A stretch of 15,808 nt of DNA from Candidatus Altarchaeales archaeon WOR_SM1_86-2 (GTDB lineage Archaea > Altiarchaeota > Altiarchaeia > IMC4 > MCBC01): assembly GCA_001723855.1 (NCBI GenBank), contig MCBC01000148.1, positions 1 to 15,808 on the forward strand, written 5' to 3'. The translations under genes were made by a program, and so were the position numbers. Positions 232 to 15,626 of this stretch are shown one piece after another. Each line of letters opens with the position of its first letter. Position 1 is the first letter of the stretch. Below the pieces are notes generated by a model that made no database searches, was not told the origin of the DNA, and saw only the letters and a list, made by a program, of their open reading frames with translations.

Positions 232-3200
232 TCAGATACTGTGTCTAATCAACCTTTTTATGCCTTTCCATAATTCATCCCCTCCATAATTCTCTGTGTT
301 TATTGCACGATGTGTGGTTGCAAATCTGTAGATATTGCAATTTACATCAAGCGCGGTCAACCAACCATCGGGCTCCGCCAGAAGTGCAATTGGCTGAGCA
401 GGAAGGAGCGTTGCTTGTATAATCCTTTTGTTAGTGATCTCGATCCCATAAATGAATCTGTCAGATCCCGCCGTGTAAAGAACAGTCGCATCTTCTGTGA
501 AAACGAGCGCCGTCACCTCACCCTGATGAAGGGTTAGCTTCGCCTCCAATTCACCGTCACTGCATCGCCAAAGTAAGACTTCGCCATTAATATTTCCACT
601 TGCAGCTACATTACATTGCGGATCTAGCGCAGCAGCTGTACCCATCAGCGTGTGAGGGTTTTTCCGCCACCACTCTTCTCTTATGTGATGATTTTTCCGC
701 CACCACTCTTCTCTAAAGAAGCTCACTTCTCCACTATGGTAAACACTAAACACAGACAGTGGCTTTCCAGCAACTGCCAGAGCAGAAATGCCCGGTCTAT
801 CCAGATAGGTATTGCTTGGTAGCGAAAACTCCTTTACAGAATCTCCTTTTCCAAGAACAGCTATTTTGTCATCTTGGGTTCCTCCAATGCCGAGGGGGGT
901 GCCCTGCCAGCCGGTACAGGATGTAAAGTCCACCTCAGCTAATGTGTGAACCTTGGCTGCCTTGCTACCTTGCCATATTACAGCGGTTCCATCTTTGTCC
1001 ACAGTAAGCGCCAAGTTAGCCTCGATGACAGCAACACCAGATATTGCTTGTGTGTGTGGGGATTTATTAATAGCTTTGATTATGCCTGAGGGCAAGATGA
1101 AAAGGATTTTATTTCCTGTTATAGCGTGGCCGGCTAGTCGTGTTCCCCGAACTCCAATAGCACCTCCTCCACCAGGATAAATCGCTCCCATGGAAAGTGA
1201 GCCGCCTGGCTCCCACTGCTGGAGTATCGATCCACTGTCCCAGTCAAAAAGTGTTAAAGCACCTGATTTTTGGCCAAATATAAGTCTTTTGTTGTCAGAA
1301 AGAGACATCATTGCTCCGGGGGGATGGTAGCGTAGACTCTCAATCGTGGCAGAACTCTTGGTTTCTATGTGAATCCTGTCGTCGACGACTATTCTGTGCA
1401 ACTTGCTGTACATATCGTATGCAAAAAACACTGAGCCTTCAAATGCTCTGCATAAAGCATATAGCGGCTTAGTTAAAGTGGTATCTATCTGCATGCCGGT
1501 CCGAGGATCATATGCTGTCAAATATCCCTGGTGGTTGGCTACGATCAATACATTCCCATCAGAAGACAGAGCCACCTTCGCAACCGAGCCAGATACTTGG
1601 AGAGTCGCAAGAATCTCACCAGTTTCCCCAGCACATACTTTGACCTTCTTATGTCCGCCCCCGACTATTAAAAGGTTCGAACAGGGAGAAAAATCAATTC
1701 TACATGTGCTATATCCTCTGTTAACGTGGATAAAGATCTCTGAATTTCGCCACACTTCGTATCCACTGAGAATATCAATTTTCATACAGGCGCCTGCTCT
1801 GGATACCAATATTGATTCATCGTCTAGAAATGTGCAGAACTCTGCGGAGGGCCAATGGAAAGATTTACCGCCAAAATACTCGTCATACAATTGCCGGTAC
1901 ATACCAACTTTGACATCCCAGAGAAGAACGCGACCATCATCACCTGTGGATAGGGCTCGCCGCCCATCTTTGGACAATGCTACCCATGTCACTACCCCCT
2001 TATGAGCGCCAATGATCCAGATGGGATGTTGCTTACCCACCTGCCAATACCCAACACATCCATCCTCTCCTCCTGAAAGAAAATGTTTGCCCGAAGGCGA
2101 TAATGTAAATGTGGTCACACCGGAGGAATGTCCGGGAGTGGGAGGAGTATTAAGTATCTTGTCAGTAACGATGAGCCCTCCTTTAAGTCGCTTTATATCA
2201 GACTTACGCAGCGATGTTGTGATTTTACCAGTTGAGACACGGTCAGTATAATTAATGATTTCTTGCGAGATAGTTTTAGGAAACCGTCTGACCAATTGGT
2301 TTCGTTCGACAAGAAGATCGAACATTCCTTGTAGTTGCTGCATTAACTTACCTGACTCATTACTCTTTGCAGTATCAAGAAATTGAACAGCATGATGAAT
2401 GTTGGATAGTAAGTCAAATATGCCAAAATACTCATTTGGACCGTCCGGCATGATGTGAGTTTTGCGGATCGAACAAATGGCTTCAAGATAAATAAAGTCA
2501 GTGTATAGAGATTCGAGTTCTTTATATTTGTATGCATGAAGAAGATGGAAAGGCAATTCATTTAGCGAACGAGGGGATGCTCCTATCCATTGTCTGTCAC
2601 CTCCCGAATCCGCATTTTTACGGAAGTATTCGGCGAGATCGCGGTGGGCGCATAGTTTGTAGTCACCGGCCAGGTATAGTCGTGCAATGGCTTCACCAAG
2701 TTGTTGATGATAGAATGTTAGTAGTGCTGTGCCATCAATGTCCCGCTCGGTGAGATACGGTTCCATGTCAAAGTACAGGCGCGACCAGACTACCACCGGG
2801 AGTCTCTTTTCTGGTGGCTCATAGTAGGCGCGTTGAATAAAGTCCTGGAAGACATCTTCATTGAGGGAAAGCACATCCAGCATTTCGTCTTCAGAAAGGC
2901 CATTTTTCGCTGCTGCCAGGTATCCCAAGCTGCGTGAGACCATTATCCTGCCGTGATTAGTATCGGATGAAAGTCGTTCAAATAGATCACAAATGATCCC
3001 TGGAATATCTGAACTGAGTTCTGTTTTTTTGGTGTATGATTTCCACCGTCGCGCTTCCTCAAAAGCCAACTTGAGGTATAGTGGCAACCCACAACCAGCA
3101 AATTTATCCAAGACCTCGTTCCACTGATGATCCTGAAGTGTCCTCCCCACATCTTCAAACCAGAGGCCTAACAACTTGCTACCCTCATTCAATGGCATCG

Positions 3201-4659
3201 GCTCCATTTCAATGCGGTTCGTTTCAGGGAGTTTACCCTCCAGTACTGAGAGGCATTCACCGGGCAGGGTCGAGACAATAAGGCGTACATGCTCGGGCAG
3301 TTTAGCAGATAACCATAACAGGTTGCGAGCGTTGTTGGCGTCAGAGAGCTGGTCTAGCGCGTCTAGGAACACGATCAATGGCTTTCCTTGGGTGGACAAC
3401 GCCAGCCGTTTTTGGAATTCCTGAACAAGTTCTCTGTATTCAGCTGGGGTTGTGGATTCGTCTGCCCCGTAGCGGCGTGAAATCTGGCGGCACAGACTCT
3501 CTAGTAATGCTCTACCGTCTGACGACCTCGGCGTCGCACCGATGAAGCGAAAGACGACCTCAGTATTGGGATAATTCTTGAGAATCTCTTTGACTGCACG
3601 AGCAGTAAGTGCCGTTTTCCCCGTTCCAGACGCGCCAAATACTGCCAGTGGATGACGATCATCTCCTTTTATGTAGTCAGCGATAGTTTGCAGAATGGCA
3701 GTCCGTCCGGTGAAGAATCTTGCCCTTTCTTTGCCGAATGTCTCATGATCTGAAATCTCCTTCTCCAGTGGATCAACCTCCTCAATCTTCGCTACCTCTT
3801 CAAGAATTATCCTTGAAAGGGAATTGTAAACATTCTCACACAGCTTATCGAGGTGGTCGGTTGTAACCCCACTTCCTGTCCACTTCGCCTCGTAGTTGTG
3901 TACATTTCCGGGTAGCATGCGACTCAAACATTCTTTTAGATTATTCATCTGTTTGTTTGCACCCCCGTCAAGATTTCCCGTCTTATCCATATCAATGAAG
4001 TCCTTTGCACTCGGATCAAGAGGCAAATCCTTGATTTTTCGGAAAAAGCAGAATACGTGTTCATTAGCATCCGGAACCTTCAATCCGTGGATGATCTCCT
4101 GTTCTGTAGCAGATGCGGTGTATTTAACTCGCTTATCAGGTTTAATTTCTGAATTCTTTATCGCTTCAAGAAGGATGGAACGCAATTTATGTTCTACTGG
4201 CTCCCACTTCGCTGAATCAGTGAATTCATCAGTTCTGGGTTGCAAACAGTAGACAGGGGGCAATGCGTTATCATCGCGCCTGTACCAGTGGGCGAGCAAT
4301 TCTCTACTCTTTCTATCTGAAACATTCCGCAAAATCTCTTCAAATTCTTTTGCAGGAATCTCGTACGGCAGTGGACGCCAACCATAGCGGTCTCCCAAGA
4401 GCACAATAAAGTTAGGACGAGGTGTGACCTTCTGGCAGCGGTTAATCTCCTCCATACATATCTTCATGGTCTGCTGATCCAGGGCTGCTTCTTCTCTTAC
4501 ACCCCAGCGCAGGTCAATCACCTGGAATCTGTAGCCGTGCTGCATGCAGAGTTCTCGTAATCTGGGAAAGACCCTTTTCTGTAACGCATTCCTTTCTTCC
4601 TTCAGGTCGGTGAAGGTGGAACTTACAAAGATCCGGAATGTCTTGGTTGATTGCACCAT
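232..4659 (-). CDS. DUF4062-NACHT/STAND NTPase with C-terminal WD40-like beta-propellers
   Basis: The protein has 1475 residues. Residues ~7-100 form a DUF4062 domain (FRIFVSSTFTDLKEER near the start, then VIDLRWGVRE and LLGDRYGWRPLP). A P-loop NTPase follows, with Walker A GASGTGKTAL at about 340 and Walker B PLIVFLDALDQL at about 430, typical of NACHT/STAND ATPases. An all-helical middle leads into WD40-like blades from about residue 845 to the end (SPSGKHFLSGGEDG, SKDGRRALSTGDDGRVLLWD). The order DUF4062-NACHT-WD40 is known from animal NWD1/TEP1-type proteins and from bacterial STAND proteins, where the propeller senses a ligand, the NTPase oligomerises and the N-terminus is the effector. 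By inference this is a cytosolic threat sensor, possibly anti-phage. The ATG at 4657-4659 fits the DUF4062 start; there is no clear Shine-Dalgarno. The gene stands alone and looks intact. A 33-bp duplication sits in the propeller (659-714). Confidence 0.9.
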   Translation of the reverse strand: MVQSTKTFRIFVSSTFTDLKEERNALQKRVFPRLRELCMQHGYRFQVIDLRWGVREEAALDQQTMKICMEEINRCQKVTPRPNFIVLLGDRYGWRPLPYEIPAKEFEEILRNVSDRKSRELLAHWYRRDDNALPPVYCLQPRTDEFTDSAKWEPVEHKLRSILLEAIKNSEIKPDKRVKYTASATEQEIIHGLKVPDANEHVFCFFRKIKDLPLDPSAKDFIDMDKTGNLDGGANKQMNNLKECLSRMLPGNVHNYEAKWTGSGVTTDHLDKLCENVYNSLSRIILEEVAKIEEVDPLEKEISDHETFGKERARFFTGRTAILQTIADYIKGDDRHPLAVFGASGTGKTALTARAVKEILKNYPNTEVVFRFIGATPRSSDGRALLESLCRQISRRYGADESTTPAEYRELVQEFQKRLALSTQGKPLIVFLDALDQLSDANNARNLLWLSAKLPEHVRLIVSTLPGECLSVLEGKLPETNRIEMEPMPLNEGSKLLGLWFEDVGRTLQDHQWNEVLDKFAGCGLPLYLKLAFEEARRWKSYTKKTELSSDIPGIICDLFERLSSDTNHGRIMVSRSLGYLAAAKNGLSEDEMLDVLSLNEDVFQDFIQRAYYEPPEKRLPVVVWSRLYFDMEPYLTERDIDGTALLTFYHQQLGEAIARLYLAGDYKLCAHRDLAEYFRKNADSGGDRQWIGASPRSLNELPFHLLHAYKYKELESLYTDFIYLEAICSIRKTHIMPDGPNEYFGIFDLLSNIHHAVQFLDTAKSNESGKLMQQLQGMFDLLVERNQLVRRFPKTISQEIINYTDRVSTGKITTSLRKSDIKRLKGGLIVTDKILNTPPTPGHSSGVTTFTLSPSGKHFLSGGEDGCVGYWQVGKQHPIWIIGAHKGVVTWVALSKDGRRALSTGDDGRVLLWDVKVGMYRQLYDEYFGGKSFHWPSAEFCTFLDDESILVSRAGACMKIDILSGYEVWRNSEIFIHVNRGYSTCRIDFSPCSNLLIVGGGHKKVKVCAGETGEILATLQVSGSVAKVALSSDGNVLIVANHQGYLTAYDPRTGMQIDTTLTKPLYALCRAFEGSVFFAYDMYSKLHRIVVDDRIHIETKSSATIESLRYHPPGAMMSLSDNKRLIFGQKSGALTLFDWDSGSILQQWEPGGSLSMGAIYPGGGGAIGVRGTRLAGHAITGNKILFILPSGIIKAINKSPHTQAISGVAVIEANLALTVDKDGTAVIWQGSKAAKVHTLAEVDFTSCTGWQGTPLGIGGTQDDKIAVLGKGDSVKEFSLPSNTYLDRPGISALAVAGKPLSVFSVYHSGEVSFFREEWWRKNHHIREEWWRKNPHTLMGTAAALDPQCNVAASGNINGEVLLWRCSDGELEAKLTLHQGEVTALVFTEDATVLYTAGSDRFIYGIEITNKRIIQATLLPAQPIALLAEPDGWLTALDVNCNIYRFATTHRAINTENYGGDELWKGIKRLIRHSI
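659..714. repeat. 33-bp in-frame tandem duplication in the STAND propeller
   Basis: A 23-base string beginning TTTTTCCGCCACC occurs exactly at 659-681 and again at 692-714, a period of 33 bases. In the minus-strand protein this reads as two consecutive copies of REEWWRKN, spaced 11 residues apart. The exact match indicates a recent slippage-type duplication that keeps the reading frame. Confidence 0.9.
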
Positions 4660-4731: not shown

Positions 4732-4875
4732 TTAAGTAAAATCTGCATCAAATCGCTTATAGATCATATTAAACATCTTATTAAATATATTTTCACCTCT
4801 ATTGTTGAACCGAAATTCCATTTCTTTTAAATAGAGGTAATAGTTGTTCTTATTGATGCCGTGAAATTTCAGCGG
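4732..4875 (-). pseudogene. C-terminal remnant of an IS1595 (ISXO2-like) transposase
   Basis: The last ~45 codons before the TAA/TGA-side stop at 4732 read KFHGINKNNYYLYLKEM, EFRFNNR and then a short helical tail. This is the classic end of ISXO2-like transposases of the IS1595 family, where a [KG]-[FY]-HG-[IV]-[SN] segment is followed by YL.E.EFRFN.R. None of the DDE-type catalytic core is present: upstream residues (4876-5097) are low-quality sequence joined in frame to the end of a HEAT-repeat gene. I see no terminal inverted repeats around it. So it is a dead 3' fragment of an insertion sequence; the same strand reads open into the HEAT remnant only by chance or by deletion. Confidence 0.65.
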
Positions 4876-4992
4876 AAGGTTCGCGAAGAATTGAGCAGGA
4901 GGTATGCAAGCAATCGTGATGCATTTCTTCGTGAACTTAAGGAGAAATATAGGCGTATGCAGAAACAGAGAGTTGATGTGGAGGTTAGATAG
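4852..4992 (+). pseudogene. Antitoxin-like small protein, 5'-truncated remnant
   Basis: On the plus strand, opposite the meaningless middle of the minus-strand reading frame, an open stretch ending at TAG 4990-4992 translates as a highly charged helical peptide (KVREELSRRYASNRDAF, then LRELKEKYRRMQKQ). This has the look of the C-terminal half of short archaeal antitoxin-like proteins that accompany PIN or RelE toxins. There is no ATG in frame; a GAGGT at 4834-4838 and an ATT at 4852 are the only start-like signals, and codons up to about 4870 overlap the transposase remnant. A short ATG-led reading beginning MFDVKFHP lies just downstream (about 5020) and resembles a RelE/ParE toxin start, but it stops after ten codons. 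I read this as debris of a toxin-antitoxin locus cut by a transposon; identity is by style only. Confidence 0.35.
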
Positions 4993-5097
4993 CATTCCTT
5001 TGTGCGTATTTTGTGCATGTTTGATGTTAAATTTCACCCCCTCAGGTAAAAGATTATCCAGCGTTTTAAGTGCCCTCAAAAATTTCCGATAACTCCT

Positions 5098-5592
5098 CGA
5101 TTTTCGAACATCTTCATTTTTATCTTTCAATGCCTGAGTGAGCGGTTCCACCGCCCATTTATCCCCTATCTTTCCAAGAGCCCATGATGTTTTCTTCCGA
5201 ACATGGTCATTTTTATCCTTCAGAGCCTGAGAAAGAGATTTCAGTGCCCTTGCACCCCCTATCTTTCCAAGAGCAGGTGCTGCTTTCTCTCGAACATCTT
5301 CAGAATATTCATCATCCTTTAAAGCATGAATGAGGGGGTTCCACCGCTCTTACATCCACGTCTTTCCAAGAGCATATAGTGCACAATTTTGAACCGCCGC
5401 CACTTCATCATGCAGAGCCTGAATGAGATGCTTGACTGCCCGCTTATCTCCTACCTTTCTAAGAGCACATGCTGCACTCACTCGGATATCGTCACTCTTA
5501 TACTTCAATGCCTTTATCAATCCTCCAACATCTTTCTTAGATTCCAACTATTCCACATTCAGTGGCCCGAATAAAAAGTCAAATACTCCCAT
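5098..5592 (-). pseudogene. HEAT-repeat protein gene, broken by amber, frameshifts and 3' loss
   Basis: The intended start is the ATG at 5590-5592 (MGVFDFLFGPLNVE), a typical beginning for small archaeal HEAT/PBS-lyase repeat proteins. Codon 15 is TAG (5548-5550), where relatives carry lysine before the first repeat; the same frame continues with LESKKDVGGLIKALKY. About five HEAT repeats follow, built on ALGKIGD..AVEPL.QALKD. At about 5357-5362 one base is missing relative to the repeat consensus, creating TAA at 5350-5352; a G5 tract at 5334-5338 (C5 on the coding strand) has one base too many and restores the frame. HEAT homology stops near 5098 (…KNEDVRKS) and the frame runs on into unrelated sequence and a transposase tail. 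HEAT repeats are protein-binding scaffolds. The gene starts 31 bases after the LRR stop, so the two once formed one transcript. Sequencing error could explain one lesion, hardly all. Confidence 0.75.
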
Positions 5593-5623: not shown

Positions 5624-6436
5624 CTATGATTTGAAATAATCATGTATTGCATCTATACCTTTTTCCGCAATTTCTGATGGAGGTTGTTTAAGCGGATTTC
5701 TACGCACATCAAGTACAGTTAAATTTGTCAACCGGGAGATTTCTTTTGGGAGCGAGGTTAGTTGATTATCAGACAAATACAATTTAGTTAAATTTGTCAA
5801 CCGGGAGATTTCTTTTGGGAGCGAGGTTAGTTGATTATCAGACAAATTCAATACAGTTAAATTTGTCAACTGGGAGATTTCTTTTGGGAGCGATGTTAGT
5901 TGATTGGCAGACGAATACAATTCAGTTAAATTTGTCAACTGGGAGATTTCTTTTGGGAGCGATGTCAGAGGGTTATAAATCAAATTCAATACAGTTAAAT
6001 TTGTCAACCGGGAGATTTCTTTTGGGAGCGATGTTAGTTGATTACCATACAACTCCAATCTAGTTAAATTTGTCAACTGGGAGATTTCTTTTGGGAGCGA
6101 TGTTAGGTCATTATTATACACATACAATTCAGTTAAATTTGTCAACCGGGAGATTTCTTTTGGGAGCGATGTCAGACGAATACTACGCAACTTCAATTTA
6201 GTTAGGTTTTCCAGTTGCAGGATGGCCTGTGGGAATTCTTTTAATTGTACAAGATATAAAGCCAGGGCAGTTACTTTTTGATTTGAATCTGTTTTGTAGC
6301 CTGTTGAATACCTGTCCATTTCTCCTTTAATTTCTGTTAATTCAATTCCAATCTCTTTTTCTAATTGTTTAATGATTTGTAAATCAGTGTCCCTATTAAC
6401 ACCCTTCTTTCCGAACAATTTATCGAATATTCCCAT
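5624..6436 (-). CDS. Leucine-rich-repeat protein (Roco-type LRR without GTPase)
   Basis: The protein has 270 residues. It opens with MGIFDKLFGKKG, which resembles the opening of the HEAT gene downstream, and a ~75-residue helical lead. Eight LRR units of 23 residues follow; seven are nearly identical (LTSLPKEIS[RQ]LTNLT plus a variable LxLxxN segment). The end reads NPLKQPPSEIAEKGIDAI and then HDYFKS, a capping motif that in bacterial and archaeal Roco and other LRR proteins is normally followed by a Ras-like GTPase or another effector domain. Here a TAG stop follows at once. No signal peptide or membrane segment is visible, so it should be a cytosolic protein-binding module. Seven cloned units suggest fast repeat expansion or gene conversion. 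Either the protein works alone, or with a separate partner, or it is a truncated Roco protein. The start ATG at 6434-6436 has no strong Shine-Dalgarno. Confidence 0.85.
   Translation of the reverse strand: MGIFDKLFGKKGVNRDTDLQIIKQLEKEIGIELTEIKGEMDRYSTGYKTDSNQKVTALALYLVQLKEFPQAILQLENLTKLKLRSIRLTSLPKEISRLTNLTELYVYNNDLTSLPKEISQLTNLTRLELYGNQLTSLPKEISRLTNLTVLNLIYNPLTSLPKEISQLTNLTELYSSANQLTSLPKEISQLTNLTVLNLSDNQLTSLPKEISRLTNLTKLYLSDNQLTSLPKEISRLTNLTVLDVRRNPLKQPPSEIAEKGIDAIHDYFKS
5718..6200. repeat. Seven tandem 69-bp repeats encoding the LRR units
   Basis: The string GTTAAATTTGTCAAC recurs with an exact 69-base period at 5718, 5787, 5856, 5925, 5994, 6063 and 6132. Each is followed by [CT][GT]GGAGATTTCTTTTGG and GAGCGA. 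A degenerate eighth unit begins at 6201. The variable part of each unit codes the LRR beta-strand face. The array is coding, not CRISPR: period, lack of spacers and frame all fit LRR units. Confidence 0.95.
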
Positions 6437-6528: not shown

Positions 6529-7329
6529 TTATTTACTTTGATTATTTAAATTCATTTTGTCTTTTACCTTCTGATAATATTTGATGTGTTCTTCGACTAA
6601 CGATTGGGACAGCCCTGTGAGGAAGCATATCTTTTCAACTAAATAACCTGCTTCATAAGATTCAATAATTCTGTTATGGTCATCAAAATATTTGTCAACC
6701 CGTTCAGGGTGGTGATTTATCCGTCTTGCGACTTCCTGAGTTAGCATTCCCTGATACCTGAGATATAGAGCTACATCTTTATGCGTCAGGGTTCTACCCA
6801 AATCAAAGATCGTTCCGGCATGTGGCAGCACCTCTCCAGGGTGATCTTCATTGTATTTCTTAACTGCATTACCAATTGTAGTTTGTGTAACGCATAATAA
6901 CATGCCCACGGTATTAAATGAAAGTACACTTCATTGGGAATATGCTTCTTTTAGTATTCTGGCAACGATCAGAGGCCGCACATCCATAATAGATTTCCCA
7001 TCCGCCAACAGCATAATTTCTTCTGGCGTTATTAATGTTATTATTGCGGGCTTTAGCTTAACATTGGCTATCGATGTGCCGTATCCAAATTTTTCGTGCT
7101 TATCAATGCCTATAACCATGGTCTGGTACGGCTGTAATCTCTCTTTTTCTAATGTGAACTCATTGATTATGTTCAAGAATCTTTCTATCAGCACATCTGC
7201 TACGACTACCATATTCTCAAACCCGAAATTTGTCATCAATTCTCTCTTCAATGCCGAATGCAGGGTCTTTTCACATAAAGGTCCATAAATCCTTTTATTA
7301 CTTAAACGCTTACTGTTTTCTTGGTCCAT
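6529..7329 (-). pseudogene. DUF1670 protein, second tandem copy, interrupted by in-frame TGA
   Basis: From ATG 7327-7329 the frame is open for 132 codons (MDQENSKRLSNKR… to RILKEAYSQ), meets TGA at 6931-6933 and continues in the same frame for 133 more codons to 6529. The continuation (SVLSFNTVGMLLCV…, NEDHPGEVLPHAG, DLGRTLTHK) is the conserved helix-turn-helix half of DUF1670. Aligned with the intact neighbour, EAYSQ-stop-SVL faces EAVDSGGCL, so the stop replaces glycine: GGA to TGA is one base change. DUF1670 is an uncharacterised family of DNA-binding-like proteins. The start overlaps the end of the upstream copy by 28 bases and has a GAGATGAT Shine-Dalgarno-like site, so the two are co-transcribed. 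A GTG at 6907-6909 could restart the C-terminal half. Gene death, split function or a sequencing error are all possible. Confidence 0.8.
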
Positions 7330-8138
7330 TTTATCATCTCGCTTTTTTTTAAAGATACAAGAAGCCCGCTATCATAAAAATCCAATGTTTTATGGAGGGC
7401 TTCTTTAAAATATGAATCATTATCAAATCCTTCATAGAGTTTGATGTATTCCCGGATAAGATTGGGTGTTAAGCCAGTCATTCTGGCTATCGAGTATTCG
7501 CTGTCACCTTTGCGATATGAAATACCGATTCTGAGGAAGTCTTTGATGTAGGTCTCAACGCAGCTTAATTCATGACATGTTCTTTCAGAGATTTTAGTCT
7601 CAGGAACACCTTGAAGAAACAGTTTGAGGATAGGGGCTTTATGACTTATTCCCCTGCCAGAGTCTGTAAAGTCTGCTCTTGTTTTAACCTCAATTCCCCA
7701 CCCCTTCAGTTCTTTAATATATGCAGATACTGTACTCCTATCAATAAATAGGATATCTGATATATCCTCATGCGCCAAGCATCCACCAGAGTCCACTGCC
7801 TCATCAGTTATGCGTTTAATAACTCGCAATTTGAGTTCTTTCAAACCATTCCTTTGCCTGTGTTCAGCATCATCTGGTGCATTAACCGTCAACTTTGCTG
7901 GAACATATTCGCAGTTCTTTAACGGCTTACCCGCAGGTTCAGTATTTTTAACAACATATCGAGTTATCTGCCCATCCTGTCGCGAGTCAGGATTTAAAAT
8001 CGTCCTCAAATACACACCATCTGAAGCAAGAGATTCAGCAACAACCGGGCTGAATTTATATCTGCCCTCAAAATGGTTTGTAAGCATGGCTTTCAGGGTT
8101 TTACTATTAAGCCTATCTTTCACAGGTATTGTTTTCAT
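7302..8138 (-). CDS. DUF1670 domain protein, first tandem copy, intact
   Basis: The protein has 278 residues when started at ATG 8136-8138 (MKTIPVKDRLNSKTL). An upstream in-frame GTG at 8145-8147 lies inside the strong Shine-Dalgarno GAGGTGAT and is rejected as start. The N-terminal half is a variable alpha/beta region; from about residue 115 comes a helix-turn-helix segment (LAHEDISDILFIDRSTVSAY, IKELKGWGIEV), then the family signature GRGISHKAPILKLFLQG, two more HTH-like helices (PETKISERTCHELS, SIARMTGLTPNLIREY) and a helical tail. This layout is that of DUF1670, a family without known function seen in archaea and some bacteria; DNA binding is inferred from the HTH segments. It leads an operon with the second, broken copy. 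Operator-like repeats sit at its ribosome binding site and in the divergent promoter, suggesting autoregulation. Confidence 0.82.
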   Translation of the reverse strand: MKTIPVKDRLNSKTLKAMLTNHFEGRYKFSPVVAESLASDGVYLRTILNPDSRQDGQITRYVVKNTEPAGKPLKNCEYVPAKLTVNAPDDAEHRQRNGLKELKLRVIKRITDEAVDSGGCLAHEDISDILFIDRSTVSAYIKELKGWGIEVKTRADFTDSGRGISHKAPILKLFLQGVPETKISERTCHELSCVETYIKDFLRIGISYRKGDSEYSIARMTGLTPNLIREYIKLYEGFDNDSYFKEALHKTLDFYDSGLLVSLKKSEMIKWTKKTVSV

Positions 8139-8151
8139 GGTAATCACCTCT
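8139..8151 (-). promoter_or_regulatory. Shine-Dalgarno of the DUF1670 gene embedded in GGTGATTACC motif
   Basis: On the minus strand AGAGGTGATTACC directly precedes the ATG at 8138. GAGGTGAT matches the archaeal anti-Shine-Dalgarno and decides the start. The same 10-mer GGTGATTACC recurs at 8210-8219 on the plus strand within an inverted repeat, so a protein binding it could block both transcription and, at the RNA or DNA level, this start region. Confidence 0.55.
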
Positions 8152-8297: not shown

Positions 8298-8489
8298 AAT
8301 ATTAATGAGATTCAAAATATAAAAACATCTGGAATAACGATCAACCAGATATTCTCAGATCACTGGGAAGATTTACAGAGAGCACAAGAAGGAACAAAAC
8401 AGGGTAGGATAGATAACTTTTATTTTTTTCTTTTAACTCTAAATAAGAATAATGGATGTGGATGTAGAGGGGGTGATCAAAGAAGGTGA
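8274..8489 (+). pseudogene. Short ORF, possibly N-terminal remnant of an IS91-like transposase
   Basis: From ATG 8274 the frame gives 71 residues. The first ~40 look like real protein (SGITINQIFSDHWEDLQRAQ), and the IF.DHWE.. segment recalls the N-terminus of IS91/IS801-type transposases just before their zinc-binding motif. The remainder (NFYFFLLTLNKNNGCGCRGG) is read out of AT-rich promoter DNA and overlaps the next gene in another frame by 38 bases, so it is probably not natural sequence of the original gene. No zinc motif or catalytic part follows. I rate the family link as weak; a genuine short unknown protein remains possible. Confidence 0.35.
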
Positions 8490-9837
8490 GGGTCAGGAAC
8501 TGGAGTTCAAGAGATCCCTTGCGGAAAGAAAGGAGATTCTTGAAACTATTTCGGCATTTGCGAACTCCAATGGAGGGAGGATTTTTATTGGGATAGAGGA
8601 AAACAAGGACGGCTCCGTAAAGGAAATAGTTGGGATTAAGATCAGGGGGAGGGAGATAGAGAACATGAGTAATGATATCAAGCAGAATACTGATTCAGTG
8701 GTTTATCCTTCCATTGAGGTGAAGGAGATTGAAGGAAAGCCAGTCCTGGTTGTGGAGGTGAAAGAATCCCCACTTAAACCAGTATTTGTCAAGATTGGCG
8801 GAATACCGGTGGCATTTAAGAGGGTTGGGAAGACAAACCAGAAGATGGATGCGAATGAATTAAGAAGGGTTATTTCAGAGGGCAGGGAATTCCTCTGGGA
8901 TTCCCAGGTATGCGAAGAAGCGAGTTTGGATGATATTGATGAAGAAAAGGTAAAGTGGTTTCTGAGAAAAGCAAAATATGAGAGGAATTTTGATGTTGAC
9001 CCTGAAACGCCGGTGGATGAGGCACTGGAAAGACTGGAGTTGATGAAAGAAGAGCAGTTAACTAACGCTGCCGTTCTGTTATTTGGGAAAAAACCACAGA
9101 GATTTTTCCTGAAGGCAAAAACAAGATGCGCTCGTTTTAAAGGAACAGAGCCGCTGGAATTTATTGATATGAAAGTTTTTGGAGGAAATGTTATTGATCA
9201 AAGAGATGATGCACTTGGATTTGTAAAAGAGCATATTAAACTGCACGCAAAAATAGTTGGGACTGAAAGAAAAGAGGATTGGGAGTACCCGATAGAGGCC
9301 GTAAGAGAAGCGATTTCAAACGCGATATGCCACAGGGATTATGAAATATCAAGCAATGTCCAGATTAGAATATTTGATGACAGACTTGAGGTATGGGGTT
9401 GCGGCCCCTTACCAAAACCACTTAGAGTGGAGGATTTGAAAAGAAAACACCCCTCTGTTTTAAGGAATGACTTAATAGGTAGCTGTTTTTTCCTGATCAA
9501 GTTCATAGAGGAATGGGGAACGGGAACAAACAGGATTATCAACGAGTGCTTAAATCACGGCTTGCCAGAACCCTTATTCGAACTGATTGCAGAAAATCTT
9601 GTTGTAACTTTTAGGAAATATAAGATTACAGAAGATGTACTGAAAGAATTAAATGAACGGCAGAAGAAAGCGATTGACTTCCTAAAAGAAAGAGGGATGA
9701 TAACTAACAAAGATTTACAGAAATTGTGTCCTGGTGTGACAAGAGAGACGCTAAGAAAAGATTTGAAGGCTATGATCGGCAAAAAAATCATTACTAAAAA
9801 AGGTAGGAAAAGAGGCGTGTATTACGAACTTATATGA
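8452..9837 (+). CDS. AlbA_2/HATPase_c_4 ATP-binding protein (RecG-like, Schlafen AAA_4 type) with winged helix
   Basis: The protein has 461 residues. An AlbA_2 (Schlafen AAA_4) domain spans ~8-135 (EGQELEFKRSL, ISAFANSNGGRIFIGIEEN, IGGIPVAFKRVGKTNQKM). A GHKL-type ATP-binding domain follows at ~270-395 with the N-box-like EAISNAICHRDY near residue 290 and the glycine loop EEWGTGTNRII near 355. A winged helix closes the protein at ~400-461 (LNERQKKAIDFLKERGMITN, RGVYYEL). Such proteins are often misnamed ATP-dependent DNA helicase RecG; they have no helicase motors. They are predicted nucleic-acid-binding regulators, common in archaea and near mobile or defence loci. The ATG at 8452 follows an AT-rich stretch with TATA-like T/A runs and no Shine-Dalgarno, consistent with a leaderless or short-leader transcript. 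Three 11-bp repeats follow directly after its stop. Confidence 0.88.
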   Translation: MDVDVEGVIKEGEGQELEFKRSLAERKEILETISAFANSNGGRIFIGIEENKDGSVKEIVGIKIRGREIENMSNDIKQNTDSVVYPSIEVKEIEGKPVLVVEVKESPLKPVFVKIGGIPVAFKRVGKTNQKMDANELRRVISEGREFLWDSQVCEEASLDDIDEEKVKWFLRKAKYERNFDVDPETPVDEALERLELMKEEQLTNAAVLLFGKKPQRFFLKAKTRCARFKGTEPLEFIDMKVFGGNVIDQRDDALGFVKEHIKLHAKIVGTERKEDWEYPIEAVREAISNAICHRDYEISSNVQIRIFDDRLEVWGCGPLPKPLRVEDLKRKHPSVLRNDLIGSCFFLIKFIEEWGTGTNRIINECLNHGLPEPLFELIAENLVVTFRKYKITEDVLKELNERQKKAIDFLKERGMITNKDLQKLCPGVTRETLRKDLKAMIGKKIITKKGRKRGVYYELI

Positions 9838-11557: not shown

Positions 11558-12597
11558 TGAGTTACACGCATATAACGTTCGGAATCCTATTTTTCCTTTT
11601 GTTTGGATCGGTGCTTGGGATTGAAGCAGATTATACATTGATTGGTGTTGCAGCATTCTTTGCTCTGCTGGCGGACATAGACCACCCGAAATCAGCGATA
11701 GGCATGCTATTCTATCCGGTTTCAACATGGATCTCGCAGAGGTATGACCACCGCACTATCACACATTCAATGAAGGTGTTTCTGCCTTTAACCTTTGCTG
11801 CACTGATATTCACACCATTCTATGGAGTGGGGGCAGCATTCGCCGTCATAATCGGCTACCTAAGCCATCTGGTAGCGGATGGGATGACAGTAACAGGATG
11901 CCCTCTGCTCTACCCGGACCCGAGACCTTTCTGGTTTCTGCCAAAGCAGCTGCTGATCAAGACAGGAGGATGGCAGGAACTTGTAATGTTCGGGATATTC
12001 TCCCTGTTTGTCGTGGCACTTTCAGGAGTGAGCTACTTTGGATTCAGGTCGTTAATGCATATGATCATTCCATCATTCCATGGGTCATACTACGATTACT
12101 GCAAGTTCTGCGATGGAGACGGTGAAAGGTATCTTTGCAATGTTAATGCCCAGGTCTGCGATGAGAGTGTCTGCGGTGATGCCAGCGGAATCGGTTTAGG
12201 GCTCACAATGGGGAACCTTATCCTGTACAGGGATGGGACATACCTTGTGATCAGAGACGCAACAACAAATCAGGTGTCTGTTGACCGGTTAAACGGAGTT
12301 TCGATTTCACACCAGAACATGCATTTCCAGAGAAAGCCGTTCACCTATGTAAGGCAGAAGCTGTCCGGGTTCGGCGGATACTCCACTGTAAGCGGGGTTA
12401 TAGAATACAGCCAGGAGGATTTCTTCTGCGACAACTGCAACGAGTTCATAATCCCCGAGGAGGTGCTTAAGGTGGACGCCCGGAAGATAACCATAAATCA
12501 CCTGCTGGTCTCGGACTTCCGGAAACCTCAGCTTCACGGGTTTGTTCAGTCAGGTCATTTAGAGATAAAGGAGGTGAGGGTTCAAGATGAAACATGA
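11554..12597 (+). CDS. YdjM/DUF457-like membrane metal-dependent hydrolase with Cys-rich C-terminal domain
   Basis: The protein has 347 residues. Residues 1-170 carry four to five membrane helices and the motifs of the YdjM (LexA-binding, DUF457) membrane hydrolase family: H6 in SYTHITFG, DIDHP at 41-45, HRTITHS at 66-72 and SHLVADG at 104-110, then TGCPLLYP. These His/Asp residues presumably bind metal at the membrane. Residues ~180-347 are not typical for the family: a Cys-rich region (CKFCDGDGERYLC, VCDESVC) and a beta-rich domain with FFCDNCNEF. Translation starts at ATG 11554 (or the next codon) with a GGGGGTGATG Shine-Dalgarno; the start overlaps the stop of the preceding gene. Its own end overlaps the ATPase gene by 11 bases. 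Substrate unknown; the added domain probably faces outside or interacts with the secreted partner. Confidence 0.8.
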   Translation: MMSYTHITFGILFFLLFGSVLGIEADYTLIGVAAFFALLADIDHPKSAIGMLFYPVSTWISQRYDHRTITHSMKVFLPLTFAALIFTPFYGVGAAFAVIIGYLSHLVADGMTVTGCPLLYPDPRPFWFLPKQLLIKTGGWQELVMFGIFSLFVVALSGVSYFGFRSLMHMIIPSFHGSYYDYCKFCDGDGERYLCNVNAQVCDESVCGDASGIGLGLTMGNLILYRDGTYLVIRDATTNQVSVDRLNGVSISHQNMHFQRKPFTYVRQKLSGFGGYSTVSGVIEYSQEDFFCDNCNEFIIPEEVLKVDARKITINHLLVSDFRKPQLHGFVQSGHLEIKEVRVQDET

Positions 12598-13483
12598 AGA
12601 GCCAGAGAATGGGGGGTCGGAGTTGAGGGGTGAGGTGAAGAAAGAGATTTTGGATTATGTGCGCAAGGGCTATTCGGTTCTGGTTAAAGGCAACCATGGA
12701 ATAGGAAAGTCCCATCTGTTAACCGAGCTCTGCATGGAAACCCACCCCCAGGATGAGATATGGATGTATTTCCCATACTGCAAGCCCCCAAAGCAGATAA
12801 TGCTGAAGATAGTTGAGAGGCTTCTGCCGGAGGGCAGGGACAGCGAGGAGTGGAAGATGATCCGCAGGGGAACCCTGCTTGAGTTGACGGAGGAGATCAG
12901 GGACAGGCTGCCAGGGGATAAGAAACTGGTTATGGTGCTCGATGAGATACACACCTTGATTGCAACGGCGGCAGCACACTACTATGTGTTGATGAAGGAA
13001 GACAACATCATTCTTGTTACAGCGGGCACGTCAAAGTACCTGGACGCTAAATTTGAGAAGCCTGAGTTGAAGAGGTTCTACTGGGATCTGAAGCAGGTTG
13101 ATCTGCCACCGCTCAGCACCGGGGAGTCGGAGGAGTTGATAGAGAAGTTCTATGACACATATGAGATTCCGAAGACGGATGAGACAGGGAAGGTAAAGAG
13201 ATGGATCCTGCAGAATGCTAAGGGAAACCCGCTGGGGATTGAAAGAGCGGTTGAGGACCTGTCCAGGGAAGATAATCTGAAGGATCTGGATATAACAAAA
13301 CATGGTGCAGTCCAGGATGTTGGGGTTAACCTGTTCCCGATCTTTGTTATCCTGATGGTTGTGGTTGTGGCATGGAGGTTCCTTGCAAGAGGAGCGGGGG
13401 ATATAGATCTGTATGCGTTCACAGGGTTCTTTGGCATAATCTTCTATATCCTTGCAAGATATCTGATGTATAAGAACAGGTGA
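12587..13483 (+). CDS. AAA/STAND-like ATPase with C-terminal membrane anchor
   Basis: The protein has 298 residues. A P-loop ATPase spans ~15-230: Walker A GNHGIGKS at 35-42, Walker B VMVLDE at 115-120, a sensor-1-like ILVTAGTSKY at 142-151, and a winged-helix-like end with LQNAKGNPLGIERAVEDL. Archaeal ATPases of this Orc1/Cdc6-MNS build are known, but this one ends in two membrane helices (NLFPIFVILMVVVVAWRFLA and YAFTGFFGIIFYILARYL, about 247-295), so it works at the inner face of the membrane. The ATG at 12587 has a strong GGAGGTGAG Shine-Dalgarno and overlaps the hydrolase gene by 11 bases, indicating coupled translation. It likely powers or gates a complex with the two upstream membrane proteins. 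A T-run follows its stop. Confidence 0.82.
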   Translation: MKHEEPENGGSELRGEVKKEILDYVRKGYSVLVKGNHGIGKSHLLTELCMETHPQDEIWMYFPYCKPPKQIMLKIVERLLPEGRDSEEWKMIRRGTLLELTEEIRDRLPGDKKLVMVLDEIHTLIATAAAHYYVLMKEDNIILVTAGTSKYLDAKFEKPELKRFYWDLKQVDLPPLSTGESEELIEKFYDTYEIPKTDETGKVKRWILQNAKGNPLGIERAVEDLSREDNLKDLDITKHGAVQDVGVNLFPIFVILMVVVVAWRFLARGAGDIDLYAFTGFFGIIFYILARYLMYKNR

Positions 13484-13510: not shown

Positions 13511-13532
13511 AAATGAATAAAGAATTTTAAGA

Positions 13533-13639
13533 GCAGATTAACGGAAGCAGCATATACGACGTTTTGCGATAGCAAAATGTCCTGAAAGGCAAGGGCTGAA
13601 AGCCCGCAACGTATATGCTGGGTTATCTGCCGTTGCGGG
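13533..13639. repeat. Folded ~107-base element with nested and competing inverted repeats
   Basis: An outer stem pairs GCAGATTAAC (13533-13542) with GTTATCTGC (13622-13630, one bulge). A perfect 11-bp inner stem pairs CAGCATATACG (13548-13558) with CGTATATGCTG (13610-13620). Inside are three hairpins: ACGTTTTGC-GATA-GCAAAATGT (13559-13580), a small CCT-GAA-AGG (13581-13589) and GGGCT-GAA-AGCCC (13593-13605). A competing 9-bp stem joins CCCGCAACG (13603-13611) to CGTTGCGGG (13631-13639) and would break the inner stem and the last hairpin. The two-stem-plus-bubble layout recalls an integron attC site, but the terminal boxes do not match the attC consensus. It may be a structured RNA, a single-strand-recognised recombination site, or a mobile palindromic repeat. 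Confidence 0.7.
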
Positions 13640-13733
13640 TTCAAATACAATCACATCATCAATCTATCAGTTACTGTACACTCTTTTACCTTTTGCTTTT
13701 CTATCCTTGATTGCATTAACCTGCTCGTCGATT

Positions 13734-15626
13734 CTACAACACATCCTCAAATATCCCTAAAAATTTCTTCATAGGCATATTAGTATCTGCCCAAATAATA
13801 TGTTTTTTTAGTTCTTTAATATCTTTATACACAAAATCAGCACCAGCACTTTTTAGTTTTCTAGTAGAAAGAGGAGACGAACCTTTAACAGCAAAGCAGG
13901 TTAAACTAGCACTTTTAGCGGATTTAATTCCCAATGGTGCATTTTCAATTACATAACAATTACGAGCAGGAATAAGTAATTTTTCAACAGCTTTAAGATA
14001 AGGTTCTGGTGATGGCTTACCGGTTTTCGTTTCCCCACCAGTAACTATTACATCAAATAGAGAAAAAATAGTGGTTTTCGATTTAAATTCTTCGATTGTT
14101 TTGGTTACAGAGCCAGTAACCAATCCTAATTTAATATTTTTGGCTTTTAGTAAATTTAATAACTCTACAATTCCAGGAAATATTTTACTCTTGAAAATTC
14201 TATGATATGCTTCTTCTTTTCTTTTGACAATAGCTCTTATTAAGTCATCGTCTGGTTCATATCCTTTGTGTTCTTTGAAAATCTCTTTAGCAGTAATCTC
14301 TCTTTTTTCGCCTTCTCTCATGTATATCTCTTCTTCACTAACATTTACACCAACTGTTTCAAAGGCTTCCTTCCATGCTTTATAATAAAAAGGCATACTA
14401 TCGATAATTACACCGTCTAAATCAAAGATGACTGCTTTTTGTTCGGTAAGTGTATCCCATGAGTAATCAAATCTGCTTTGAAATAGATCTAATAAATGTC
14501 TTTCAAAAAAAGATCTACCTCTCGCATGAATTAAATAATTATACTCTGCACCTACAAATCTCATAGAATGTTTGGGGTCAAATTTATATAAGCCTAACAA
14601 ACCTTCAGATTTCTTATTCCTTTTACGAAAGATGTACGTGCGTAGAAGTGGTTCATTATCATAGAAACGAACATTGAAGATTATATTTGAATTTTGTTTA
14701 ATAACCTCCGCCATGATGCCAATTGAACTCTGGATGAATGGTCTCTTTTTTGGGTCCTTTAATGGATTCCGGATTCTGACCCTAAATATTAATGGGGTTG
14801 GGGGATGGAGATCTTCTAAATCGTATCTTAGAGCAGCAGCAAGAGTCTCATAAGTATATAAAGATAGATCAATCTGCTCGGTAGGCTCTAACAAATTGTT
14901 ATCTTTTATAAATTTATAAACTGCTGGTTCATTCGCAGGAATCATAAAAACCGAAGGCTCTTCTTCAAATTTAATTCCCAGTTCTCCCAGCTTTTTATTC
15001 CAAATTACTTCATGGACTCCAACCTCCTCCTTGATACCCTTAAATTTTTTACTTTCTTTTCTACCAAATTTTACACTAATCTTATCTTCTGCATGAGTTT
15101 TAGCATCTTCTGATATCAATATTTGGTATGGTTTTGCTAGACTAACTATCCTTGCAGCTCTGTCTACAACCAACCCATAAGGATCAATAGGAAAATTATA
15201 GTATTGGGCAAACAGTACATCTCCAAAATCTATGCCCATCTTGGGTTTATACTCATCAAGTTCATTTCTTATTTCTTTATTAACATCTTTAAAATATTTC
15301 TGAATATCTATTGCAATTTCTATGGCGACTTTAGAGCTATTTTTTCCTTTAAAATAAGCCATTACTTCATCGCCTATATATTTACAGATTTCGTATTCTT
15401 TAATTTCGCCCTTTTGCTTGTACTTTTCTCCCTTCCTCTTAATAATTTTAGTAACATCAAGATTGAATTTAATTACCTTTTCAACACCGACTGCAATTCC
15501 TCTTTCATCCTTATAGGTGGTAGACTCTGTCATATCGATGAAAATGACTGTTGCACTGTCAATTAACCCTTCTATCTCTTTCCGTACTTGTTTTAATTTT
15601 TCTAAAACAGATATCAATGTTGTCAT
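13734..15626 (-). CDS. Class III nucleotide cyclase - middle domain - HAD phosphatase fusion
   Basis: The protein has 630 residues. The cyclase domain spans ~20-210: metal Asp31 in FIDMTEST, Lys82 and metal Asp86 in KYIGDEVMA, GIDFGDVLF at 131-139, Asp148 (IDPYG) and VDRAAR at 154-159. Lys82 with Asp148 is the pair that marks ATP use in this family. The usual transition-state Asn is Asp155; Arg159 is kept. The middle (about 225-390) ends in a segment (NVRFYDNEPLLRTYIFR) that recalls DUF5919-like sensor domains, weakly. The HAD-IA domain (398-605) is complete: DLDGVIIDS with Asp402/Asp404, Thr504 in VTGS, Lys537 in TGKPSPEPY and ENAPLGI at 561, as in beta-phosphoglucomutase-like phosphatases. 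I infer a signalling enzyme that makes a cyclic nucleotide and carries a phosphatase on the same chain. No membrane segment is seen. It starts at ATG 15624-15626 after a weak AAGGTA, and is much more AT-rich than the module to its left. Confidence 0.85.
   Translation of the reverse strand: MTTLISVLEKLKQVRKEIEGLIDSATVIFIDMTESTTYKDERGIAVGVEKVIKFNLDVTKIIKRKGEKYKQKGEIKEYEICKYIGDEVMAYFKGKNSSKVAIEIAIDIQKYFKDVNKEIRNELDEYKPKMGIDFGDVLFAQYYNFPIDPYGLVVDRAARIVSLAKPYQILISEDAKTHAEDKISVKFGRKESKKFKGIKEEVGVHEVIWNKKLGELGIKFEEEPSVFMIPANEPAVYKFIKDNNLLEPTEQIDLSLYTYETLAAALRYDLEDLHPPTPLIFRVRIRNPLKDPKKRPFIQSSIGIMAEVIKQNSNIIFNVRFYDNEPLLRTYIFRKRNKKSEGLLGLYKFDPKHSMRFVGAEYNYLIHARGRSFFERHLLDLFQSRFDYSWDTLTEQKAVIFDLDGVIIDSMPFYYKAWKEAFETVGVNVSEEEIYMREGEKREITAKEIFKEHKGYEPDDDLIRAIVKRKEEAYHRIFKSKIFPGIVELLNLLKAKNIKLGLVTGSVTKTIEEFKSKTTIFSLFDVIVTGGETKTGKPSPEPYLKAVEKLLIPARNCYVIENAPLGIKSAKSASLTCFAVKGSSPLSTRKLKSAGADFVYKDIKELKKHIIWADTNMPMKKFLGIFEDVL

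Follow-up and report, generated by a model that had tools for sequence, protein, structure and literature searches.

The window, by which we mean the whole 15,808-nucleotide stretch of DNA analyzed, encodes a single protein in which a class III nucleotide cyclase is joined through a phospholipase D (PLD)-fold domain to a complete HAD-IA hydrolase (Table 1). The cyclase-PLD-HAD family to which it belongs is real and conserved and looks rare, and its design is unusual among class III cyclases. Our preferred interpretation, which we hold tentatively and at a little under even chances, is that a ligand gates the cyclase, which probably makes cAMP, and that a BT2127-type pyrophosphatase in the same protein would pull the cyclase reaction forward.

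An earlier, sequence-only reading of the window had described an intact 630-residue chain, and this is borne out by one uninterrupted ORF that occupies exactly 13734-15626 on the minus strand, with an ATG start and no internal stops across its 630 codons; the plus-strand reading of the same interval is full of stops. Pfam matches place Guanylate_cyc at residues 22-200 (E 1e-7; 32.2 bits against a cut-off of 21.9) and HAD_2 at residues 399-580 (E 8.2e-35; 121 bits). The model of the full-length protein had a pTM of 0.57, too low to fix the relative placement of the domains.

Table 1. Features of the cyclase-PLD-HAD gene, in window coordinates.
Feature	Position	Strand	Basis
Whole gene, cyclase - PLD-like - HAD, 630 aa	13734..15626	-	ORF, domain matches, conserved order
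Class III nucleotide cyclase domain, residues ~22-210	14997..15563	-	
Middle domain with PLD fold, residues ~216-392; lacks the catalytic His, retains Arg329 + GAExN; probably a ligand sensor	14451..14981	-	
HAD-IA domain, BT2127 inorganic-pyrophosphatase type, residues ~396-612	13791..14441	-	
K82-Y-I-G-D86, adenine-type Lys and second metal Asp	15369..15383	-	17/17 covering cyclase rows
D148 (purine-specificity Asp) ... D155 (replacing usual Asn), R159	15150..15185	-	19/19 cyclase rows
Glu438, equivalent of BT2127 cap Glu47	14313..14315	-	16/16
Glu561-Asn562, the 'EN' form of HAD motif IV also seen in BT2127	13941..13946	-	16/16

A protein database search, which scored 7,999 candidates sharing most words with the query and therefore gives a lower bound on family size, returned 31 proteins, 20 of them family members (P0001-P0020). 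Thirteen of these, the window's own included, are complete: the cyclase-middle-HAD order, when sought in other proteins, was found entire in 12 further metagenomic sequences at 45-79% identity (P0002-P0009, P0011 and P0013-P0015). P0010 and P0012 are N-terminally truncated members with the same domain order, so that 13 complete and two truncated fusions stand among the 20 rows and the homologues are not always two separate genes. Recurrence of the same complete order in 12 other proteins indicates that the fusion is maintained and, at these levels of identity, rules out a chance ORF or an assembly artefact. Family members were drawn from several sources, and P0011 sits on a 98 kb contig.

The remaining family rows carry other combinations of domains. 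P0017 and P0018 comprise cyclase and middle domains without the HAD, which may thus be dispensable, although P0017, from a contig of just 1.7 kb, is perhaps cut. In P0019 and P0020, close relatives of the cyclase, the PLD module is replaced by C-terminal parts of another kind, of no assigned family. P0016 retains the middle and HAD domains behind a different N-terminal domain that carries a GG...KDIDLV pattern and an AbiEii match of 18.4 bits, under the Pfam cut-off of 22.5; the pattern and this sub-cut-off match, in one protein, suggest a nucleotidyltransferase-like domain. Compared with PDB sequences the same domain gave no meaningful match, and a protein database search with the middle region of P0016 returned P0016 as its sole match. 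The other 11 matches (P0021-P0031; 24-35% cover) have HAD domains and no Guanylate_cyc. A separate 266-residue protein, P0032, opens with ~30 residues like those at the start of the cyclase family and continues straight into the HAD, as if the cyclase and middle domains had been deleted in frame. In a tree of the middle domain, from which P0019 and P0020 were excluded since both lack it, P0015 fell outside the remaining members at 94/89 on a branch that was not starred; because only 3 of the 16 inner branches were starred, the order of the domain swaps cannot be read from this tree.

The N-terminal domain has the attributes of a class III cyclase: a Guanylate_cyc match above cut-off, the cyclase fold, two metal-binding Asp residues and the transition-state Arg. 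D31, K82 and D86 are present in all 17 cyclase rows that cover those sites, and D148, D155 and R159 in all 19. The sequence-only reading had credited the domain with most of its catalytic residues, which proved correct, the sole replacement being that of the transition-state Asn usual in class III cyclases by Asp155 in 19/19 rows. Retention of the catalytic residues in relatives argues against a cyclase that is inactive throughout the family. The Asn is not universal, since the solved adenylyl cyclase Ma1120 has Ala at this site, and Asp also occupies it in two actinobacterial cyclases. The latter are plasmid-encoded (L015:2423-3649 and L016:2429-3673), share with the family an 'EV(I/L)W..FG' stretch as well as the Asp-for-Asn change, and are followed by cold-shock-type domains (under cut-off in L016). 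The Lys82/Asp148 pair suggests that the product is probably cAMP; this specificity is a prediction only, because a Lys (K104) likewise takes part in UTP recognition in the uridylate cyclase AnPycC, according to excerpts of PMC11224242.

What the sequence-only reading called an unknown middle domain can now be assigned a fold: structure prediction yielded a PLD fold in a confident model. We located the catalytic site by sequence, using the HKD motif, presumably the catalytic signature of the PLD superfamily, and found Leu or Met in place of the His nucleophile at the inferred site in 18/18 rows. An active PLD nuclease was rejected on account of this lost His. The domain keeps Arg329 and a GAExN motif, whose Arg and Asn are probable anion-binding residues, and it resembles the sugar-binding (ligand-binding) domain of TrmB. 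In a bacterial MAG (L001:1448-2383), the same PLD-fold module follows an HTH (DNA-binding) domain within one protein. Since the module thus occurs behind a DNA-binding domain and, in P0016, behind a nucleotidyltransferase-like domain, it is probably a ligand sensor. The earlier reading held that cyclases are usually fused to sensors, not to small-molecule phosphatases; this cyclase, conserved in its fusion to a HAD, is joined to a probable sensor as well.

Pfam DUF5919 matched 4 of the 20 family rows at E<=1, with a best E of 0.0082 and all below the cut-off of 23.5 (P0017 scored 15.8 bits); the same profile gave no match in G001, the genome containing L001, or in 14 control genomes, a result that is uninformative. 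Searching an 84,980-species genome collection with the middle domain recovered one locus, L001, and with a cyclase-middle alignment no match; among 398 genomes of the phylum of G001, the middle-domain alignment matched in G001 alone.

The HAD-IA motifs (D402, D404, T504, K537 and E561-N562) are present in 16/16 HAD-bearing rows, in agreement with the earlier description of a full HAD-IA hydrolase with four motifs. By residue markers and fold rank, the closest characterised enzyme is BT2127, a HAD-IA inorganic pyrophosphatase of Bacteroides thetaiotaomicron (PDB 3quq, 3qut and others) reportedly described by Huang and co-workers in 2011. Seven BT2127 marker residues are kept in 16/16 members, among them cap Glu47, which we take, with Thr113, Lys147 and Glu171-Asn172, to mark the pyrophosphatase; titles of BT2127 PDB entries name mutants of D11, D13 and E47. 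Motif IV reads 'ED' in two pgmB proteins and one other HAD comparator, as opposed to 'EN' here and in BT2127. The invariance of Glu438 in our HAD alignment, which comprised 44 of the 120 HAD matches listed (371 in all) and seven family rows, is partly a selection effect because close relatives were chosen.

Other features set limits on this likeness. Tyr76 of BT2127, presumably a cap residue that shapes the pocket, is replaced by Val, Ile, Thr or Leu in 16/16 members. NCBIfam model NF053653 scored the HAD at 171.5 bits, under its equivalog cut-off of 245 (a Parabacteroides HAD-IA hydrolase scored 344.9), and stand-alone HADs of no assigned substrate carry the same markers, which therefore define a clade wider than the proven pyrophosphatases. 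Since both the residue markers and the ranking of folds point to BT2127, a generic sugar phosphatase or beta-phosphoglucomutase was set aside as first choice, though it may yet apply. For a HAD-IA enzyme to cleave a cyclic phosphodiester would be chemically unusual, and general HAD chemistry makes degradation of the cyclic product unlikely. The likeness to BT2127 makes by-product PPi the likeliest substrate. The best single argument for it is that the same HAD stands beside a cyclase and beside a nucleotidyltransferase-like domain, both PPi-releasing; it draws on one protein, P0016, and its sub-cut-off match.

Under the interpretation we prefer, the N-terminal cyclase, presumably a homodimer, would convert ATP to cAMP and PPi, as the Lys82/Asp148 pair suggests; the PLD-fold module would bind a small, probably phosphorylated ligand and switch the cyclase; and the C-terminal HAD, judging from its residue markers, would hydrolyse the released PPi in place. 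The cyclase reaction is readily reversible, and such hydrolysis would make it irreversible. The advantage of a fused pyrophosphatase is not obvious, since cells normally contain soluble ones. A broader proposal, possible but on the whole doubtful, is that of a modular family whose different PPi-releasing messenger enzymes have in common a single kind of PLD-fold sensor and a single dedicated HAD pyrophosphatase, the enzyme being either a class III cyclase or an AbiEii-like nucleotidyltransferase, with sensing, synthesis and PPi removal on one chain, possibly in an uncharacterised stress or antiviral response that is perhaps archaeal here. Were the HAD a pyrophosphatase, the protein would be a class III cyclase carrying its own by-product sink, and the nucleotidyltransferase version in P0016 would suggest a more general way of driving nucleotidyl transfer. 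The protein is also a candidate for class III cyclase signalling in a possibly archaeal setting; such cyclases are said in excerpts of PMC8646023 to be very few in archaea. Several queries of the open-access literature, some of them narrow and matched against partial texts, found no mention of a cyclase-PLD-HAD protein.

The gene and an AAA ATPase gene (12587-13483, +) are convergently arranged. It lies close to the contig end, with 182 bases upstream of it in the window, so that any upstream operon partners are out of view. The GC content of the cyclase-HAD gene (0.328) is the lowest of those measured (LRR 0.354, DUF1670 region 0.388, AlbA_2 0.396, a 290-aa protein 0.433, STAND 0.466, YdjM 0.481, AAA 0.491). 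The minus strand also encodes a 1475-aa STAND-type protein (232-4659) with DUF4062, NACHT/AAA_16 and WD40 repeats; a stretch of 93-nt repeats over several short frames (4732-5550), whose residues look HEAT-like by eye and which is perhaps a decayed gene; an LRR protein with near-identical tandem units at 69 nt spacing (5624-6436); and two adjoining DUF1670 proteins (6931-8147). Among 14 control genomes DUF1670 matched in Methanosarcina acetivorans alone, which may point to an archaeal source resembling Methanosarcina, and it was not found in plasmids. An AlbA_2 (Schlafen) and HATPase_c_4 protein lies on the plus strand (8452-9837; PADLOC pAgo 78.6 bits, Aga 49.3 bits). Between the AAA and cyclase-HAD genes is a strongly folding intergenic element (13534-13640), with an MFE of -46.1 kcal/mol (z -4.98) over 13520-13650, outer arms CAGCATATACG inverted, and two inner hairpins; it had no Rfam match, its core had no exact match in viral contigs, and none was found in plasmids.

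Several other explanations were weighed. The protein might be a self-resetting circuit: a phosphorylated metabolite would be detected by the PLD-fold domain, signalled by the cyclase (or nucleotidyltransferase) and then itself dephosphorylated by the HAD, which ends the signal. Sugar and hexitol phosphatase models do match the HAD, more weakly, in 10/13 and 11/13 members, respectively, at E<=1e-20; the loss of Tyr76 may widen its pocket; and the probable anion-binding residues and TrmB-like form of the PLD module would suit such a ligand. The closest characterised enzyme is nonetheless a pyrophosphatase, and with Glu438 and Glu561-Asn562 in every HAD-bearing member we regard this circuit as unlikely, if worth keeping in mind. 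We give still less credence to the idea that the cyclase yields a different cyclic nucleotide, such as a pyrimidine one, or acts only as a nucleotide-binding regulator attached to a HAD that is the real enzyme. The invariant change of Asn to Asp155 would fit this idea, as would P0012, named in its source by its HAD alone; against it, the metal, specificity and Arg residues are all kept, and Ala at the Asn site of Ma1120 accompanies a solved adenylyl cyclase, leaving the idea the least probable of those considered.

A Pycsar-like unit, in which the cyclase would be switched on by infection and the HAD would be either a toxic effector that drains nucleotides or sugar phosphates or its control, is improbable too. 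The PADLOC PycC models match at 43-46 bits (best 46.4), higher than the 32 bits of the Pfam cyclase match, but of three ordinary cyclases one scored higher (L017, a HAMP/Cache protein, at 101.2 and 80.9 bits) and two lower (best 27.4 for P0153 and 15.7 for L014). The match is hence not diagnostic and was rejected as evidence for Pycsar; with controls on both sides, it speaks neither for nor against kinship with PycC. The low GC content of the gene and the STAND, AlbA_2 and LRR genes in the same window would suit a defence role, as would published conflict systems: excerpts of PMC7159879 describe vWA-MoxR systems that combine a cNMP cyclase with Band 7 and a C-terminal HAD, the last of these highly derived, missing a Lys and perhaps inactive. 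Against this, no TIR or cyclic-nucleotide-binding domain was seen in the nine of 47 window ORFs scanned (for STAND, among the best 25 of 37 families), and no cyclic-nucleotide receptor, TM effector or TIR effector was seen within the window, which has 182 bases upstream of the gene. Across 2.9 million viral contigs, searched with two queries or patterns, no homologue was confirmed, and two neighbouring window genes likewise gave none in viral contigs. No plasmid (373 records) or phage (40 records) match covered 80% of the protein; among the 15 listed in each, matches centred on the HAD, and a few plasmid matches crossed an adjoining gene to reach as far back as residue 277-382.

Comparison with known systems places the protein near several of them. 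It shares with Pycsar PycC a soluble class III cyclase and profile similarity, but here that match is non-diagnostic, no receptor or effector gene was seen in the nine of 47 ORFs scanned, the Lys/Asp pair is of the adenine type, and PLD and HAD domains are added. The cyclase-HAD linkage resembles that of the vWA-MoxR systems as excerpted in PMC7159879, whereas the window protein has Lys537 and all HAD motifs, and its linker is a PLD fold. Unlike Ma1120 and other class III adenylyl cyclases, it has Asp155 at the Asn site, an 'EVIW..GI' stretch behind the cyclase domain, and PLD and HAD domains attached. BT2127 stands alone, whereas the HAD here is fused, has not kept Tyr76 and scores under the NCBIfam equivalog cut-off. 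Finally, the PLD fold is common to the ligand-binding domain of TrmB/TrmBL2 and to DUF5919-type regulators, and L001 carries the module behind an HTH; in the family described here, whose DUF5919 matches are sub-cut-off, the output is a cyclase, or a nucleotidyltransferase-like domain, in place of DNA binding.
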